Assembly (NCBI RefSeq): GCF_015694725.1
Contig: NZ_JADQDQ010000005.1
Location: forward strand, 310,001-374,000
DNA length: 64,000 nucleotides
DNA from: Hymenobacter jeongseonensis
GTDB lineage: Bacteria > Bacteroidota > Bacteroidia > Cytophagales > Hymenobacteraceae
Reading direction: 5' to 3'
A model generated the notes under the pieces. It was not told where the DNA came from. It worked only from the letters and a program-made list of their open reading frames with translations, and did not search any database. The position numbers were made by a program, and so were the translations under genes. The first letter of the stretch is position 1, and each line of letters opens with the position of its first letter. This document shows positions 46,098-50,975 of this stretch, one piece after another.

Positions 46098-46215
46098 AAT
46101 TCGAGTACGAAAGTAAGCCGTGGCGCCACGTTCCGCGAATTCTTGCGTGGTGGGCATTGCCAAAGAAAGCCGAGCAGCCAACTCGTTCAGCCCCGTAGCA
46201 GGCCCCTTAGCAAAT

Positions 46216-46254
46216 CAGGCCGCAGAAGCGTATAAATTACGCTTCTGCGGCCTG
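46216..46254 (-). terminator. Terminator of the Lrp-family regulator gene
   Basis: A perfect 17-bp stem (46216-46232 with 46238-46254) built on CAGGCCGCAGAAGCGTA and a 5-nt loop. On the minus strand it lies 27 bp past the regulator stop. The U run is weak. Confidence 0.75.
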
Positions 46255-46281
46255 TTAAGACATACAATCCGGGCCAGTGAG

Positions 46282-46749
46282 CTAGTGCGTGAGCTGCGCC
46301 GGGCGGTTGATTACTTCTTCCAAAGAAATCAGGGTTTCGGTGCGCTCGATTCCATCAATGGGCTGAATCCGGTCGTGCAGCACGTCGCGCAGGTGCTGCG
46401 TATCGCGGCACACCAGCCGGGCAAATACCCCGTAGGCCCCGGTAGTAAAATGAATGCTCACCACCTCCGGAATCTCGCGCAGTTGCTGCACAACGCTGGT
46501 ATACACCGAACTTTTCAGCAAGTAAATGCCGAGAAAAGCATTAACCCCGTATCCAAGCTTTTGGTAATCAATGCGAAGCGTGGCTCCCTGCACGATGCCT
46601 AGCTCTTCGAGCCGGGCCATGCGCACGTGCACGGTACCACCCGACACGTTGACCTTGCGGGCAATTTCCGTGTAAGGCATTTTCGCATCCTGAATGAGCA
46701 GGTTAAGGATACTGCGGTCAGTATCATCAAGTTCGTAATTTCTAGGCAT
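46282..46749 (-). CDS. Lrp/AsnC-family transcriptional regulator
   Basis: 155-residue regulator. The N-terminal helix-turn-helix is clear (LNLLIQDAKMPYTEIARKVNVSGGTVHVRMARLEELGIV, about 14-53; read as two motifs, IARKVNVSGGTVHVR and EELGIVQG), and the C-terminal RAM domain (about 75-150) contains GYGVNAFLGIYLLKS and VSIHFTTGAYGVFARLV. Such proteins sense an amino acid or other small ligand as a dimer or octamer and control a few to many genes. It is divergent from the short transcription unit at 46872-47105, from which it is separated by 120 bp containing both promoters. It may regulate that unit. Confidence 0.95.
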   Translation of the reverse strand: MPRNYELDDTDRSILNLLIQDAKMPYTEIARKVNVSGGTVHVRMARLEELGIVQGATLRIDYQKLGYGVNAFLGIYLLKSSVYTSVVQQLREIPEVVSIHFTTGAYGVFARLVCRDTQHLRDVLHDRIQPIDGIERTETLISLEEVINRPAQLTH

Positions 46750-46777
46750 ATTTTGCAGAAAAGAATTATAGTAAACG

Positions 46778-46785
46778 CAAAATTA
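46778..46785 (-). promoter_or_regulatory. Bacteroidota -7 box (TAATTTTG) for the Lrp-family gene
   Basis: Exact TAnnTTTG, 28 bases upstream of the ATG at 46749, within an AT-rich divergent region. Confidence 0.5.
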
Positions 46786-46836
46786 ACGGCAACAAATTAA
46801 ATTTATTGTAAATTCTTTCAACAGGAAGCTTGATAT

Positions 46837-46867
46837 TTGCATTATCTAGCTTATACTGTTACATTTG
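46837..46867 (+). promoter_or_regulatory. Consensus Bacteroidota promoter of the short structured transcript
   Basis: TTG (46837-46839), 20 bp, TACATTTG (46860-46867): an exact match to TTG-N19-21-TAnnTTTG and the best promoter in the window. Transcription should start near 46872, with no confident protein gene immediately downstream on this strand. Confidence 0.7.
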
Positions 46868-46871
46868 TCGT

Positions 46872-47105
46872 AATCCAAGGCAGATGGCCGAGGCACTTAG
46901 TAGACTGAAAAGCAAAGTCGCAATCAACGCCGATTATTTGGCATTATTGCAAGTCAACTTCTTTCCGAAGAGTTGGTTCTTTTCACTACGGCCGCGGTTG
47001 GATACAGAGGAGAAGAGGGGAAAACGGGGTAGCGCATCTGGGTGGATGTCTGCCTCACATTTGTAGGAGGCGACCTCTGGGTGGGGGTCGCCTCTTCGTG
47101 CTTTA
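46872..47105 (+). ncRNA. Candidate unclassified structured RNA of about 230 nt
   Basis: The unit is bounded by a consensus promoter (46837-46867) and a terminator-like hairpin (AGGAGGCGACC at 47065-47075 pairs with GGTCGCCTCTT at 47086-47096). Between them I can draw a folded RNA. The closing stem is GGCAGA (46879-46884) with TCTGCC (47049-47054). A long helix pairs GTAG-AC-TGAAAAG (46900-46912) with CTTTTCACTAC (46979-46989), extended by GGCC (46886-46889) with GGCC (46990-46993). Inside it lie two hairpins: GCAAT..ATTGC (46920-46950, with an inner GCC/GGC) and CAACT-CTT/AAG-AGTTG (46955-46975, UCCG loop). The 3' segment 46994-47048 is purine-rich and largely unpaired. A 60-codon frame (46884-47066) runs through it, but its codon use (AGT, AGA, CTT, TTA, CTA) is unlike local genes. 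It does not match tRNA, tmRNA, RNase P or SRP RNA as I know them; 6S-like RNA cannot be excluded. Confidence 0.5.
47065..47105 (+). terminator. Terminator hairpin of the structured transcript
   Basis: 11-bp stem AGGAGGCGACC / GGTCGCCTCTT with a 10-nt loop, followed by a weak U-run (CTTT at 47101-47104). GAAGAGG at 47012-47018 could pair with CCTCTTC (47091-47097) in the right arm as an alternative fold. Confidence 0.55.
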
Positions 47106-47159: not shown

Positions 47160-49379
47160 CTACCGTGCGGCCACCGGAGCCCGCTGGCCCTGGAACTGCT
47201 TCAGCCCGGCGTCCAGAAACGCCCGGAACTGCGCCACGTCGGGTTCGTAGGCAATGGGAGCAACCAAGGGCTTGCTGGTTGCGTCGTCGGGGTCGAGAAT
47301 TACATAATAGGGTTGGGCATTGAAGCCAAAACGAGTCACCTGCAAATCGGCATTTTGCTTACCCAGCGTGGTTTTGAGCTGCTTGTCCCGGGGCGACGTG
47401 TACCACTCCTTTTCGGGTAGTTCGGTTTTGTCGTCCACGTACAAAGCTACCACCACATAGTCGTTGCGCAGGCGCGCCAGCACCTGCGGGTCGCTCCAAA
47501 CCGTGGCTTCCATCTTCCGGCAGTTAACGCAAGCGTGCCCCGTGAAGTCAATAAAAATGGGCTTGTTCTGCTCGCGGGCGCAACGTTTGGCCTGCTCCAA
47601 ATCGAAATAGCCGTCCAGATTATGCGGTAGTTCCAGAAACTCGCCAAAGCGGGGCGTTTCGCACAGGGCACTGGCTACTTGGCGTGAGGGCGAATTACTT
47701 GCCTGAGCAGCCGTAGCCAACGAAAAATCGTTCTTGCTCTGGGGCGGCAAATAGCCAGCCAGCAGCGGCAGCGGGGCCCCAAATAGGCCCGGCACCAAAT
47801 ACACGGTGAAAGCAAAGGCCATGACGGCCATCATCAGGCGCGCAACGCTGAGGTGGTCGAGGGGCGAGTCGTGCGAAAGGCGAAATTTGCCCAGCAGGTA
47901 AAACCCCAACAGCGCCGACAGCACAATCCACAGCACGATGTACACGTCGCGGTCGAGCAAATGCCAGTGGTAAGCCAGGTCGGCGGTGCTCAGGAACTTG
48001 AGCGCCAGCATGAGTTCAATAAAGCCCAGGGTCACCTTCACGGTATTGAGCCAGCCGCCGGAGCGGGGCAGGCTTTTTAGCCACGAGGGAAAGATGGCAA
48101 ACAGCGTAAACGGCAAAGCAAACGCCAGCGAGAAACCTAGCATGCCCACAATGGGCGTAATCCGCTCGCCCCGGGCCGCCAGACTCAGGATACTGCCCAC
48201 AATGGGCGCGGTGCACGAAAACGACACCACCACCAGCGTCAGCGCCATGAAGAAAATGCCCGCCCAGCCGCCTTTATCGGCCTGCGTGTCCACGGTATTC
48301 ACGAGCTGATGCGGCAGCGTGATTTCGAACAACCCCAAAAACGAGAGGCCAAATACTACGAAAACGGCGAAGAAAATCACGTTGGGCAACCAGTGGGTGC
48401 TGATGAGGTTGGGCCCGTCTTCCCCCAAGAGGGCCGAGACCAGCACCCCCACCAACACGTAAATGCCAATGATGCTGGCGCCGTACACCAACGCTTTGAA
48501 GATGCCGCGCTGGCGGCTATCGGAACCGCTGGTGAAGAGCGAAACCGTCATCGGCACCATCGGAAAAACGCAGGGCGTCACCAACGCCGCTAAGCCAAAC
48601 GTGAACGCCAGAAAAGCAAAGCTCCACAGGCCACCGGCCTTGCCCACGGGGTCTTCGGCCGCCGCGGGCGCCACAGTTGCCACGGGAGCGGCGCTGGCCG
48701 CGCTTGGCACGTCATCACCCGGCAGGGCCGGGGCGGAGGCCACGGCAGGCTGCGCGGCCGAATCGATACCGGGTGCAACCGAATTGGCCGTCGGCGGCGC
48801 GGGCACTGAAGCAGCGGGTGCCGCAGTAGTGGGAGAAGTTGTGGAAGCAGTGGAACCGGGCTTGGTCGCGGAGGAAGTGGCGGGGTTCGGCACCGCGCCA
48901 GCCACCGTTATCGGGCCGAAACTGAGCGTTTCGTTGCCGGGCACGCAACGGCCATCCACGGTGGTGCAGCTCTGGTAGTCGGCCGCGGCGGTGATGGTGA
49001 GCGAGCCCGGCTTCAACACCCGGATGCGCTGGCGCAACTGGCCGGTTTTTTCCCAGAAAGCGACCTCGCCTTTAAAAACTTCGTCCTGCTCGTGGTGCGA
49101 CTTAACGGATTGCAGCTTGCCCACCAAGGCGTAAGCTGGGCTGGGTTTGAAGGCGAGCGTAAAAACTACCGGCCCGACTTCGTCGCTAAAATCCGACGCA
49201 TACAGGTGCCATTTATCGTCGATGCGCGCGTTCACCACCAACTCCAGTTCCTCTCCTACTTTGGCACTGGGCTGGCTCAGCGCCGTGCTCAGGTGCGTGG
49301 GCGTGAGAATCTGGGCCGCAGCCGGAACAGCTACGCACAGCCAGATTAACAATAACTTAACCATCAAAAAAATCTTCAT
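47160..49379 (-). CDS. dsbD: Thiol:disulfide interchange protein DsbD
   Basis: 739-residue inner-membrane reductant conduit that carries electrons from cytoplasmic thioredoxin to periplasmic thiol proteins. Signal peptide (about 1-23) and periplasmic alpha-like domain (about 30-150, with a Cys pair in SCTTVDGRC), a Pro/Ala/Thr-rich linker, the eight-span CcdA-like membrane domain with the active Cys pair (TPCVFP near 261 and SFSCTAP near 390), and a C-terminal thioredoxin-like domain with CVNC near 616-619. The architecture is complete. It probably serves the exported thioredoxin and DsbA-like systems, though none is adjacent. Single gene, next to the structured RNA unit. Confidence 0.95.
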   Translation of the reverse strand: MKIFLMVKLLLIWLCVAVPAAAQILTPTHLSTALSQPSAKVGEELELVVNARIDDKWHLYASDFSDEVGPVVFTLAFKPSPAYALVGKLQSVKSHHEQDEVFKGEVAFWEKTGQLRQRIRVLKPGSLTITAAADYQSCTTVDGRCVPGNETLSFGPITVAGAVPNPATSSATKPGSTASTTSPTTAAPAASVPAPPTANSVAPGIDSAAQPAVASAPALPGDDVPSAASAAPVATVAPAAAEDPVGKAGGLWSFAFLAFTFGLAALVTPCVFPMVPMTVSLFTSGSDSRQRGIFKALVYGASIIGIYVLVGVLVSALLGEDGPNLISTHWLPNVIFFAVFVVFGLSFLGLFEITLPHQLVNTVDTQADKGGWAGIFFMALTLVVVSFSCTAPIVGSILSLAARGERITPIVGMLGFSLAFALPFTLFAIFPSWLKSLPRSGGWLNTVKVTLGFIELMLALKFLSTADLAYHWHLLDRDVYIVLWIVLSALLGFYLLGKFRLSHDSPLDHLSVARLMMAVMAFAFTVYLVPGLFGAPLPLLAGYLPPQSKNDFSLATAAQASNSPSRQVASALCETPRFGEFLELPHNLDGYFDLEQAKRCAREQNKPIFIDFTGHACVNCRKMEATVWSDPQVLARLRNDYVVVALYVDDKTELPEKEWYTSPRDKQLKTTLGKQNADLQVTRFGFNAQPYYVILDPDDATSKPLVAPIAYEPDVAQFRAFLDAGLKQFQGQRAPVAAR

Positions 49380-49587
49380 AATTTCAAACCAGAAGCCTAT
49401 TGTCCTGTGTTGCGCTTTTGTTCTGAAATAAGGCGCTGACGGCAGAATCCGTTCCCACCGTCTGTTCAGGCAAGTTGCGGCCTTTTGCCACTGCTTCCGC
49501 GCACTTTCCTCGACAAAATTAAGGCTGCGCCTACCACAAACTGGCGGTCGAAAAGTTCAGCAGTCCAACAAGACGCGCTAATCTCCG

Positions 49588-49595
49588 TACTTTTG
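49588..49595 (+). promoter_or_regulatory. Bacteroidota -7 box (TACTTTTG) for the HlyC/CorC-like gene
   Basis: Exact TAnnTTTG giving a start near 49600 and a leader of about 40 nt before the ATG at 49641. No convincing -33 TTG at the usual spacing. Confidence 0.5.
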
Positions 49596-49640
49596 AATAA
49601 CTAAGGCCCCCAGACCGACCGTGTCGCGGGAGCCATTCAC

Positions 49641-50975
49641 ATGGGTTTAAAAATATTATTTACCGTTTTACTAGTCTTGGTAAACGGATTTTTCGTGGCC
49701 GCCGAATTCGCGCTGGTCAAGGTGCGCATTTCGCAGATAGAGTTGCGCGCCAAAGAAGGAAACCGCCTGGCTAAGCTTACGCTCAGCATGTTGCAGGACC
49801 TGGAGGCTTACCTTTCGGCTTCGCAATTGGGCATTACGCTGGCCTCTCTGGGCCTGGGTTGGATAGGCGAAAGCGTGGTGGCCTCCATCATTTTGGCTGC
49901 CGTGCACGCCCTGGACCTGAATGTGACGCCTGAGTTAGCGCACCAGATTGCCCTGCCCGTTTCGTTTGCCACCATCACGGTATTGCACATCGTAATTGGT
50001 GAGCAGGCTCCTAAAATGCTGGCCATTCAGCGGCCCGAAGCTCTGAGCATTGCCATTGCCCTGCCGCTGCGGCTGTTCTACATCATCAGCTTCCCTGCCA
50101 TCTGGATTCTGAACAAGCTGTCGGGTCTTACCCTGCGGTTGTTCGGGGTGGCGTCGGGGCACGGCAGTGAAGCCCATACCTCCGACGAGCTGCGCATGCT
50201 GCTGGACCAAAGCAAGGAAAGCGGCGAAATCCAGGACTCGGAGCACGAACTGATTGAGAACGTGTTCCAGTTCAACGACCGGATGGTGAAGCAGATTATG
50301 GTGCCCCGCACCAAGCTCTCGGCGTTGGACGTGAACGCCCCCGCCGACCAGATTCTCGACGTTGTTTTTAACGAGGGCTACTCGCGCATGCCGGTGTACG
50401 AAGGCAACATCGACAACATTGTGGGCGTGCTCAACGTGAAAGACCTGCTGCCCATCATCCGGCGCCAAGAGCCGGTAGAGCTGGCCCGCATCATGCGGCC
50501 GCCCTACTTCGTGCCCGAAACCAAGAAAATCAACCGCCTGCTGCGTCAGTTTCAGCGCAAGCACATCGTGATGGCCATTGTGAGCGACGAGTTTGGCGGC
50601 GTTTCGGGCATCGTCACCATCGAGGACATCATGGAGGAACTGGTGGGCGAAATCCAGGACGAGTACGATAACGAAGTGCCCGTGGTGGAGAAAGTGACCG
50701 AGGACGAGTACCGCGTGAACCCCGCCACGCCCATTTCCGATGCCAACGAATACCTCCCCTTCCCGCTGCCCGAGGGCGAAGACTATGAAACAGTGGGCGG
50801 CCTGCTGAACGTCATCTACGGCAGCATCCCGGAAGTAGGCGACGTCGCCGTGCTCGACCCTTATGAGTTCCGCGTGCTGCAACGCTCGCGCCGCGCCGTG
50901 GAGCTGGTGCAGCTGCGCATCACCACCGTGGAAGAGCGCGCCGAGCCGCGCGGTACGCTGGGCGACGAACTATAA
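49641..50975 (+). CDS. Hemolysin/CorC-family CBS-domain membrane protein
   Basis: 444-residue protein with the domain order CNNM/DUF21 (about 1-190, with four membrane segments beginning GLKILFTVLLVLVNGFFV), two CBS domains (about 205-330, containing VPRTKLSALDVNAPADQIL) and the C-terminal transporter-associated CorC_HlyC domain (about 350-430). Such proteins are linked to Mg2+/Co2+ transport or membrane-ion homeostasis; the name hemolysin is historical. Members vary in function, so transport of a particular metal is not claimed. Monocistronic; convergent with the carbonic anhydrase gene after 21 bp. Confidence 0.93.
   Translation: MGLKILFTVLLVLVNGFFVAAEFALVKVRISQIELRAKEGNRLAKLTLSMLQDLEAYLSASQLGITLASLGLGWIGESVVASIILAAVHALDLNVTPELAHQIALPVSFATITVLHIVIGEQAPKMLAIQRPEALSIAIALPLRLFYIISFPAIWILNKLSGLTLRLFGVASGHGSEAHTSDELRMLLDQSKESGEIQDSEHELIENVFQFNDRMVKQIMVPRTKLSALDVNAPADQILDVVFNEGYSRMPVYEGNIDNIVGVLNVKDLLPIIRRQEPVELARIMRPPYFVPETKKINRLLRQFQRKHIVMAIVSDEFGGVSGIVTIEDIMEELVGEIQDEYDNEVPVVEKVTEDEYRVNPATPISDANEYLPFPLPEGEDYETVGGLLNVIYGSIPEVGDVAVLDPYEFRVLQRSRRAVELVQLRITTVEERAEPRGTLGDEL

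Follow-up and report, generated by a model that had tools for sequence, protein, structure and literature searches.

The window, the whole 64,000-nucleotide stretch of Hymenobacter jeongseonensis DNA analysed here, contains a short transcription unit whose product is, as supported by comparison with relatives, a real structured RNA and appears to be a decayed and fused derivative of a tRNA-like gene. The parent gene, here called the tRNA-like domain (TLD), is apparently undescribed and occurs in many sampled Bacteroidota and in some phages; in bacteria it often lies beside a regulator gene of the amino-acid type (Lrp).

The preliminary description had pointed to a promoter leading into a unit that ends in a terminator-like hairpin. 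These parts are all present: the promoter is kept in homologues and the unit, of about 235 nt, closes with a conserved 12-bp hairpin (47065-47096). The 5' end of the RNA was taken from the promoter and the 3' end was set at the terminator. The features of the locus are listed below.

46282-46749, minus strand: Lrp/AsnC-family regulator gene (Pfam PF13404 and PF01037), divergent from the RNA and its conserved partner in 94 of 94 copies.
46750-46867, no strand: divergent intergenic promoter region of near-constant length (Lrp-RNA gap 117-123 nt in 94 copies), probably containing an Lrp site.
46836-46867, plus strand: promoter TTTG-N20-TACATTTG, with TTTG at 46836-46839 and TACATTTG at 46860-46867, kept among homologues.
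46868-47102, plus strand: predicted RNA of about 235 nt, with homologues found by BLAST and covariance model R1.
46888-46894 with 46991-46997, plus strand: helix P1', which encloses the decayed tRNA-like middle; 92.9% of cells paired, both-sided change at 4 of 7 pairs.
46900-46989, plus strand: remnant of the tRNA-like domain, recognised by comparison with the full domain of relatives, helices 77-84% paired; its parts are the acceptor-stem core GUAG/CUAC (46900-46903/46986-46989), a hairpin (46929-46942) and a T-arm remnant (46967-46984), the anticodon arm being lost.
47007-47026, plus strand: purine-rich strand GAGGAGAAGAGGGGAAAACG, unpaired in the structure used and near-invariant in the 24 aligned window-clade sequences.
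47026-47056, plus strand: hairpin A with loop CUGGGUGG at 47038-47045, 98.3% paired, loop invariant.
47065-47096, plus strand: hairpin B, the terminator, with loop CUGGGUGG at 47077-47084, 99.7% paired.
47160-49379, minus strand: DsbD-like gene (Pfam PF02683), convergent neighbour, downstream in 88 of 94 copies.

Homologues in the genus were detected by BLAST. A covariance model built on the 3' 110 nt of the RNA (R1) gave strong copies in 94 of 120 genus genomes at E 2.5e-11 or below, and 107 genomes are reached at E 0.1. Outside the genus R1 scored no more than 33 bits, on sequences that resemble generic terminator hairpins, and these matches were left out of the count. The exact twin-loop pattern, searched for in one genome per species among 84,980 species, was found in 74 stretches, of which 73 are titled Hymenobacter and one Solirubrum. 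The Lrp/AsnC genes divergent to the 94 copies are 76-100% identical to that of the window. The distance from the start of Lrp to the start of the RNA is 117-119 nt in 92 copies and 123 nt in two, and the gap between the RNA and DsbD varies from 20 to 1544 nt in the 88 copies where DsbD was found. That the gap is near-constant on the Lrp side alone suggests a control region common to Lrp and the RNA. This synteny strengthens the presumed link to the divergent Lrp gene, and Lrp may control the RNA, as the synteny and the near-constant spacing suggest. All 94 copies have the motif TAnnTTTG; since it served as the anchor, this is in part built into the search.

At the window locus no match above the curated cut-off was found with Rfam 15. 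Matches below the cut-off in the loci (miRNA, Thr_leader, ohsC, OrzO-P and others) have positions outside the RNA, and an ftsZ-DE match over the twin hairpins of L006, which scores 25.1 bits (E 0.39) where the cut-off is 72.2, was treated as chance. BLAST of the window RNA against plasmids gave no match, and the literature retrieved by full-text search contained, as far as titles and the first lines of abstracts go, nothing recognised as this RNA. The 6S-Flavo, Flavo-1 and Bacteroidales-1 RNAs are structured RNAs of Bacteroidota (Rfam; PMC2864571, in part); unlike these, the window locus has no Rfam match.

Folding of the single sequence is only modestly better than that of shuffles (z -2.65, 2/200), and the case for a structure therefore had to rest on relatives. 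In 24 window-clade sequences, the window included, a structure of 43 pairs is formed in 92.4% of cells. Neither this figure nor the number of pairs with both-sided changes is reached by any of 500 shuffles, and slid controls give 45-54%. Alignment A6 comprised 24 of 25 sequences, L017 being omitted as a duplicate of L016; from the 32 stretches located, alignment A1 took 24, leaving aside five close relatives and three second sites that fall within the DsbD region. L016, L017 and L024 have another pair of GGGTGG sites in the DsbD gene region, some 300 nt downstream of the RNA, which is likely due to chance.

The preliminary description had proposed a non-coding RNA and a covariation test of its helices. 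The covariation, with both-sided changes at 17 of 43 pairs, supports an RNA, while the helices as drawn there mostly fail. The 11-bp helix 46900-46912/46979-46989 is paired column by column in 40.5% of cells, and only its GUAG/CUAC core recurs (77%), shifted by one column in the window's own row. Its GGCC/GGCC extension does pair in 82.3% but is beaten by the 7-bp helix P1', which uses the same bases in another register (92.9%) and has one mismatch in the window's own sequence. The closing stem 46879-46884/47049-47054, paired in 47.9%, is no better than slid controls (36-56%). Within the window clade GAAGAGG is able to pair with the terminator arm, as the suggested switch requires, but by eye no such complement is seen in the majority form.

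Conservation is unevenly distributed along the RNA. The middle varies freely across the window clade, and the 3' part is the most conserved, with a mean column identity of 84% over the 24 sequences, invariant loops and both-sided changes in the stems. In the majority form hairpin B is followed by a T run. That the window RNA is a mere leftover of a tRNA-like gene, whose terminator and trailer persist without function, would agree with the free variation of the middle and with the repeated decay of the TLD described below; the conservation of the 3' part speaks against it and makes it very improbable. Several hairpins presenting one loop motif are also a property of the CsrB/RsmZ sponges, whose GGA-bearing loops are bound by CsrA. 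The loops of the window RNA are CUGGGUGG, not GGA in the loop, which does not fit a sponge of this kind. Variants bearing an extra hairpin of the CUGGGUGG type are found in L064, L066, L068 and L139.

A small protein of about 60-78 residues encoded by the unit has next to no probability. An open frame (46830-47066) is present in the window, but it has an internal stop in 22 of 24 homologues; L014 and L024 are out of the window's frame over most of their length, and in L024 the start codon is replaced by a stop. Substitutions per codon position in the 24 homologues are 0.298, 0.383 and 0.321, with no excess in the third position. The stops, frame shifts and codon positions refute a protein, barring one private to a single species. 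They agree with the preliminary description, which saw no convincing protein gene; substitutions biased by codon position and preserving 60 residues, which it named as the sign of one, are not seen.

The middle of the RNA is in most Hymenobacter a tRNA cloverleaf, the TLD, with 7+5-bp acceptor/T arms, a Leu-type D loop, G73 and a long variable arm. A regular expression for the two halves of the acceptor stem and their spacing, with one substitution allowed, found it in 65 of 94 copies, of which at least five (L098, L105, L119, L136 and L139) are eroded internally by eye. The cloverleaf and the hairpins together are paired in 97.1% of cells, with both-sided changes at 19 of 51 pairs, in the 64 RNAs of alignment A2, eroded ones included (L026-L028 and 61 of 66 others; L060, L064, L066, L068 and L139, which lack the TLD or have extra hairpins, were omitted). 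With no structure supplied, RNAalifold recovered four arms of the TLD: acceptor, anticodon, variable and T. The trailer in most Hymenobacter is a second module, made up of the purine-rich strand and two or more hairpins showing CUGGGUGG. The remaining 29 copies, 25 from the window clade plus L059, L060, L086 and L092, have a decayed domain or none at all, and they retain the 3' module, most clearly L060. In one of two majority-form folds the linker GAGGAGGG pairs with CCCUCCUC in the anticodon arm of the TLD; as a general switch this pairing was dropped, since by eye L128, L129 and L138 do not keep it.

A simple form of the unit was found among the 26 genus genomes without a strong R1 match. 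An Lrp homologue (E 1e-40) is present in 17 of these, and 16 of the 17 genes face a promoter, leader, TLD and plain terminator, without the twin loops. With an identity of only 53-73% to that of the window, the Lrp homologue in the simple-form loci is a putative orthologue. In the seventeenth genome (G070) Lrp is 96% identical to the window's and no recognisable domain is found there. We infer that the simple form is the older one and that the twin-loop trailer was added later.

The window genome contains a second copy of the TLD at G000:C23:55338-55414, a version of 77 nt in which the variable arm is gone. A compact copy of the same size is found in 24 of 26 window-clade genomes and is absent from G059 and G063. 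In the two compact copies compared the anticodon stem is wholly replaced by CUAGC/GCUAG with the loop CUAUCUC kept, and both copies checked are called tRNA-Asp(atc) by ARAGORN. The TLD and the 3' module, a single unit in most of the genus, are thus two loci in the window clade. None of nine other Hymenobacter with a weak or missing domain shows a second copy. G016, G108, G064, G004, G085, G131 and G017, and in the window clade G059 and G063, have a decayed TLD or none and show no second copy, so that the TLD is dispensable there.

Beyond the genus, two covariance models of the TLD alone were used, R2, seeded with 30 hand-picked sequences (alignment A4), and R3, rebuilt from the order. Both separate the TLD from true tRNA-Leu. 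The R3 background reaches at most 54.7 bits in seven genomes, and all nine such loci checked by ARAGORN are tRNA-Leu; full-size copies score 88-137 bits among the matches listed, compact copies 67-70 and eroded copies down to 52. At E 1e-15 R3 matches 174 of 241 genomes and 78 of 103 genera of the order, where four of the 174 are window-clade genomes matched through the compact copy and G308 is borderline. In the phylum 40 of 395 genomes match, including three from outside the class. Within the order tandem copies are frequent, with a start-to-start distance of 133-229 bases in the arrays read. A divergent Lrp homologue lies in the stretch in 13 of 35 order loci and in 24 of 34 further loci (raw counts; the 34 include two compact copies and two stretches from one genome); no Lrp gene was found in the other 22 order stretches, many of them with a flank of only 1.5 kb. 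One order TLD compared by BLAST with phages and plasmids gave no match. Some TLD copies (L265, L254 and L258) have the short palindrome ATCCCGATAGCTATCGGGA, or a sequence close to it, inserted into the D arm or the variable arm, as if a small mobile palindrome lands in TLD arms.

Alignment A5 contained all 74 matches at E 1e-8 or better. The 70 distinct copies are paired in 98.2% of cells, with both-sided changes at 14 of 28 pairs, a figure that leans towards structure because the alignment was fitted to the model. The discriminator is G73 in 74 of 74 copies and is followed by C in all of them. All 70 distinct order copies have the pairs U1-A72, G2-C71 and U3-A70, from which some viral copies deviate. 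The T loop is of the UUCGAAU type and the D loop of the AAAYUGGCAGA type (70 distinct copies), and the variable arm has 36-88 nt. The anticodon loop of seven bases reads C-Y-N-U-C-U-C in 60 of 74 copies: base 34 is variable (G, C, U, A), bases 35-36 are UC and base 37 is U in 70 of 74 and C in four. ARAGORN reported no TLD at 41 genus loci (33 with TLD) and missed all 74 copies at the 35 order loci; the Rfam tRNA model found it in one of 30 TLD-bearing genus loci (L027, 31.7 bits) and in none of 20 order loci. Since both skip the TLD nearly everywhere tried, annotation pipelines probably miss it.

The 7-bp acceptor stem, the 5-bp T stem and the consensus T and D loops place the TLD among tRNA structures; the window copy itself has lost the anticodon arm. 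The TLD is probably not an ordinary decoding tRNA, as a consistent anticodon and a purine at position 37 are absent. The nearest canonical relative by score is tRNA-Leu of the same genomes (9/9 background loci), which shares the type of D loop, the 7/5 arms and the C after the discriminator (7/7 tRNA-Leu compared). The defining discriminator of tRNA-Leu is A73, which fits the seven genes compared; the TLD differs in having G, without a Leu anticodon, and in its loop (mostly CYNUCUC with U37) and variable arm, and tRNA-Leu was rejected. A tmRNA, with its tag-coding frame and tRNA-Ala-like ends, is not supported either: the first three acceptor pairs do not fit such ends, and ARAGORN called no tmRNA at genus and order loci. 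The E. coli 3'ETS-leuZ is a tRNA-derived spacer RNA and MALAT1/mascRNA an RNA flanked by a tRNA-like structure. Like these, the Hymenobacter RNA combines a tRNA-type domain and a regulatory RNA in one transcript; it differs from them in that its tRNA part is non-standard and its trailer has repeated identical hairpin loops. The allo-tRNAs (Mukai et al. 2017, reviewed in PMC7609411) are tRNA-like genes of bacteria that bear Ser-type identity marks, anticodons other than those for Ser (GUC among them) and a 12-bp acceptor domain of 8/4 or 9/3, some of them in polycistrons. The TLD, with 7/5 in the counted structures against the 8/4 or 9/3 required by that account, was not assigned to them; it also differs in its Leu-type D loop, its variable arm reaching 88 nt and its frequent Lrp neighbour.

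The exact TLD core pattern was also found on 30 IMG/VR contigs, some near-identical to each other. R3 confirms 29 of these at 72.8-126.6 bits; the remaining one is cut by the contig end and scores 56.2. Other tRNA genes, up to 25 calls, are present in 20 of 30 viral stretches, and in 12 of 30, some near-identical, the TLD adjoins tRNA-Ser. No Lrp gene was found in the 30 stretches. ARAGORN lists the neighbouring tRNAs and not the TLD in all 30, and the Rfam tRNA model gave no match at the TLD in nine stretches while finding 86 others. Of ten proteins compared with PHROGs, three were without a match; the matches include a terminase and a portal protein on L385 and, on L370 and L384, DNA polymerases. 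One array with a TLD (L394) contains 21 tRNAs and a tmRNA. Weak R3 matches of 33-49 bits lie in viral tRNA arrays (L368 6143-6262 and 7683-7831; L390 5065-5186 and 5270-5413; L370 7214-7351), some of them long and uncalled by ARAGORN, possibly other non-standard tRNAs or eroded copies.

The position among viral tRNAs, directly next to tRNA-Ser in the stretches mentioned, together with G73 in every copy, the UC of bases 35-36 and the frequent U37, would suit a specialised aminoacyl carrier outside ordinary decoding, regulated by Lrp within amino-acid supply, with the window RNA as a by-product keeping only the trailer. SerRS is suggested as the charging enzyme because of G73 and the long variable arm, and AspRS because of the Asp-like U35-C36-C38 with G73, which are identity elements of that enzyme. 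The variable base 34, also seen in the same copies, the lost variable arm of the compact copy and the losses of the TLD in several species count against a carrier, which is rather unlikely.

A bait or decoy for tRNA-cutting enzymes of phage, defence or toxin origin would explain the tandem copies, the losses and the carriage by phages. The tandem arrays, the repeated decay or loss of the TLD and the copies in viral tRNA arrays, in one of which (L381) a gene product matches a family of RNA ligase / tail-fibre attachment proteins, are in its favour. The Lrp neighbourhood recurs over families, however, and a pure decoy would not need Lrp; this role is improbable.

Comparison with relatives supports the window RNA as one end state of a gene lineage that includes the TLD. 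The explanation preferred here, held at slightly below an even chance, is that this RNA is now an Lrp-controlled trans-acting small RNA with a tRNA-like ancestor. The starting unit would be a TLD transcribed divergently from an Lrp/AsnC-family gene, with a leader and a plain terminator, an arrangement present at 16 Hymenobacter Lrp loci and also, frequently in tandem, in other families. Most Hymenobacter copies have as trailer the purine-rich strand and the CUGGGUGG hairpins. In the window clade the TLD at this locus has lost its anticodon arm, and the compact 77-nt TLD is found elsewhere in 24 of 26 genomes. The RNA made at the window locus would act in trans through the two CUGGGUGG loops and the purine-rich strand, and these may pair with mRNAs or hold an RNA-binding protein. 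Lrp would set its synthesis by amino-acid supply via the shared promoter region, and the ends of the TLD would be processed as in a tRNA without ordinary decoding. Against this explanation count the compact copy without a long variable arm, the losses of the TLD in several Hymenobacter, the viral and order stretches in which no Lrp gene was found and the low Lrp identity in the simple-form loci. An antisense target search in the 64-kb window gave five sites for CCACCCAG, two of which are the RNA's own loops, against 3.1 expected, which is chance level.

A broader account is possible, though clearly short of an even chance: the TLD would be an unrecognised tRNA-like RNA of Bacteroidota outside ordinary decoding, often paired with an Lrp/AsnC regulator of its own, tandemly multiplied in many genomes and carried by phages within tRNA arrays, that serves as an RNA of amino-acid status (charged or uncharged), fused in Hymenobacter with a twin-loop RNA and later split from it in the window lineage. 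The family, in 174 of 241 sampled order genomes and on viral contigs, is missed by ARAGORN and the Rfam tRNA model in nearly all loci tried. Were it charged, the TLD would supply one more amino-acid carrier, with an outlet still to be found; as a sensor or bait it would tie Lrp regulation to tRNA biology and phage conflict in a new way. Because the tRNA-like RNA and the small RNA have fused and split naturally, as the window locus shows, the two functions can be separated by experiment.

Two further elements were seen near the unit. An inverted repeat at 46215-46255, between the 3' ends of the Lrp and glycosyltransferase genes, is probably an ordinary terminator. A conserved leader at about 49585-49640, with the order GTACTTTTG...GGCC..CCGACCGTGTC..GGGAGCC..CACATGGG, precedes a CNNM/CorC-like gene (49641-50975); like leaders stand before a similar CNNM/CorC-like gene in several other Hymenobacter, and the leader is possibly structured.
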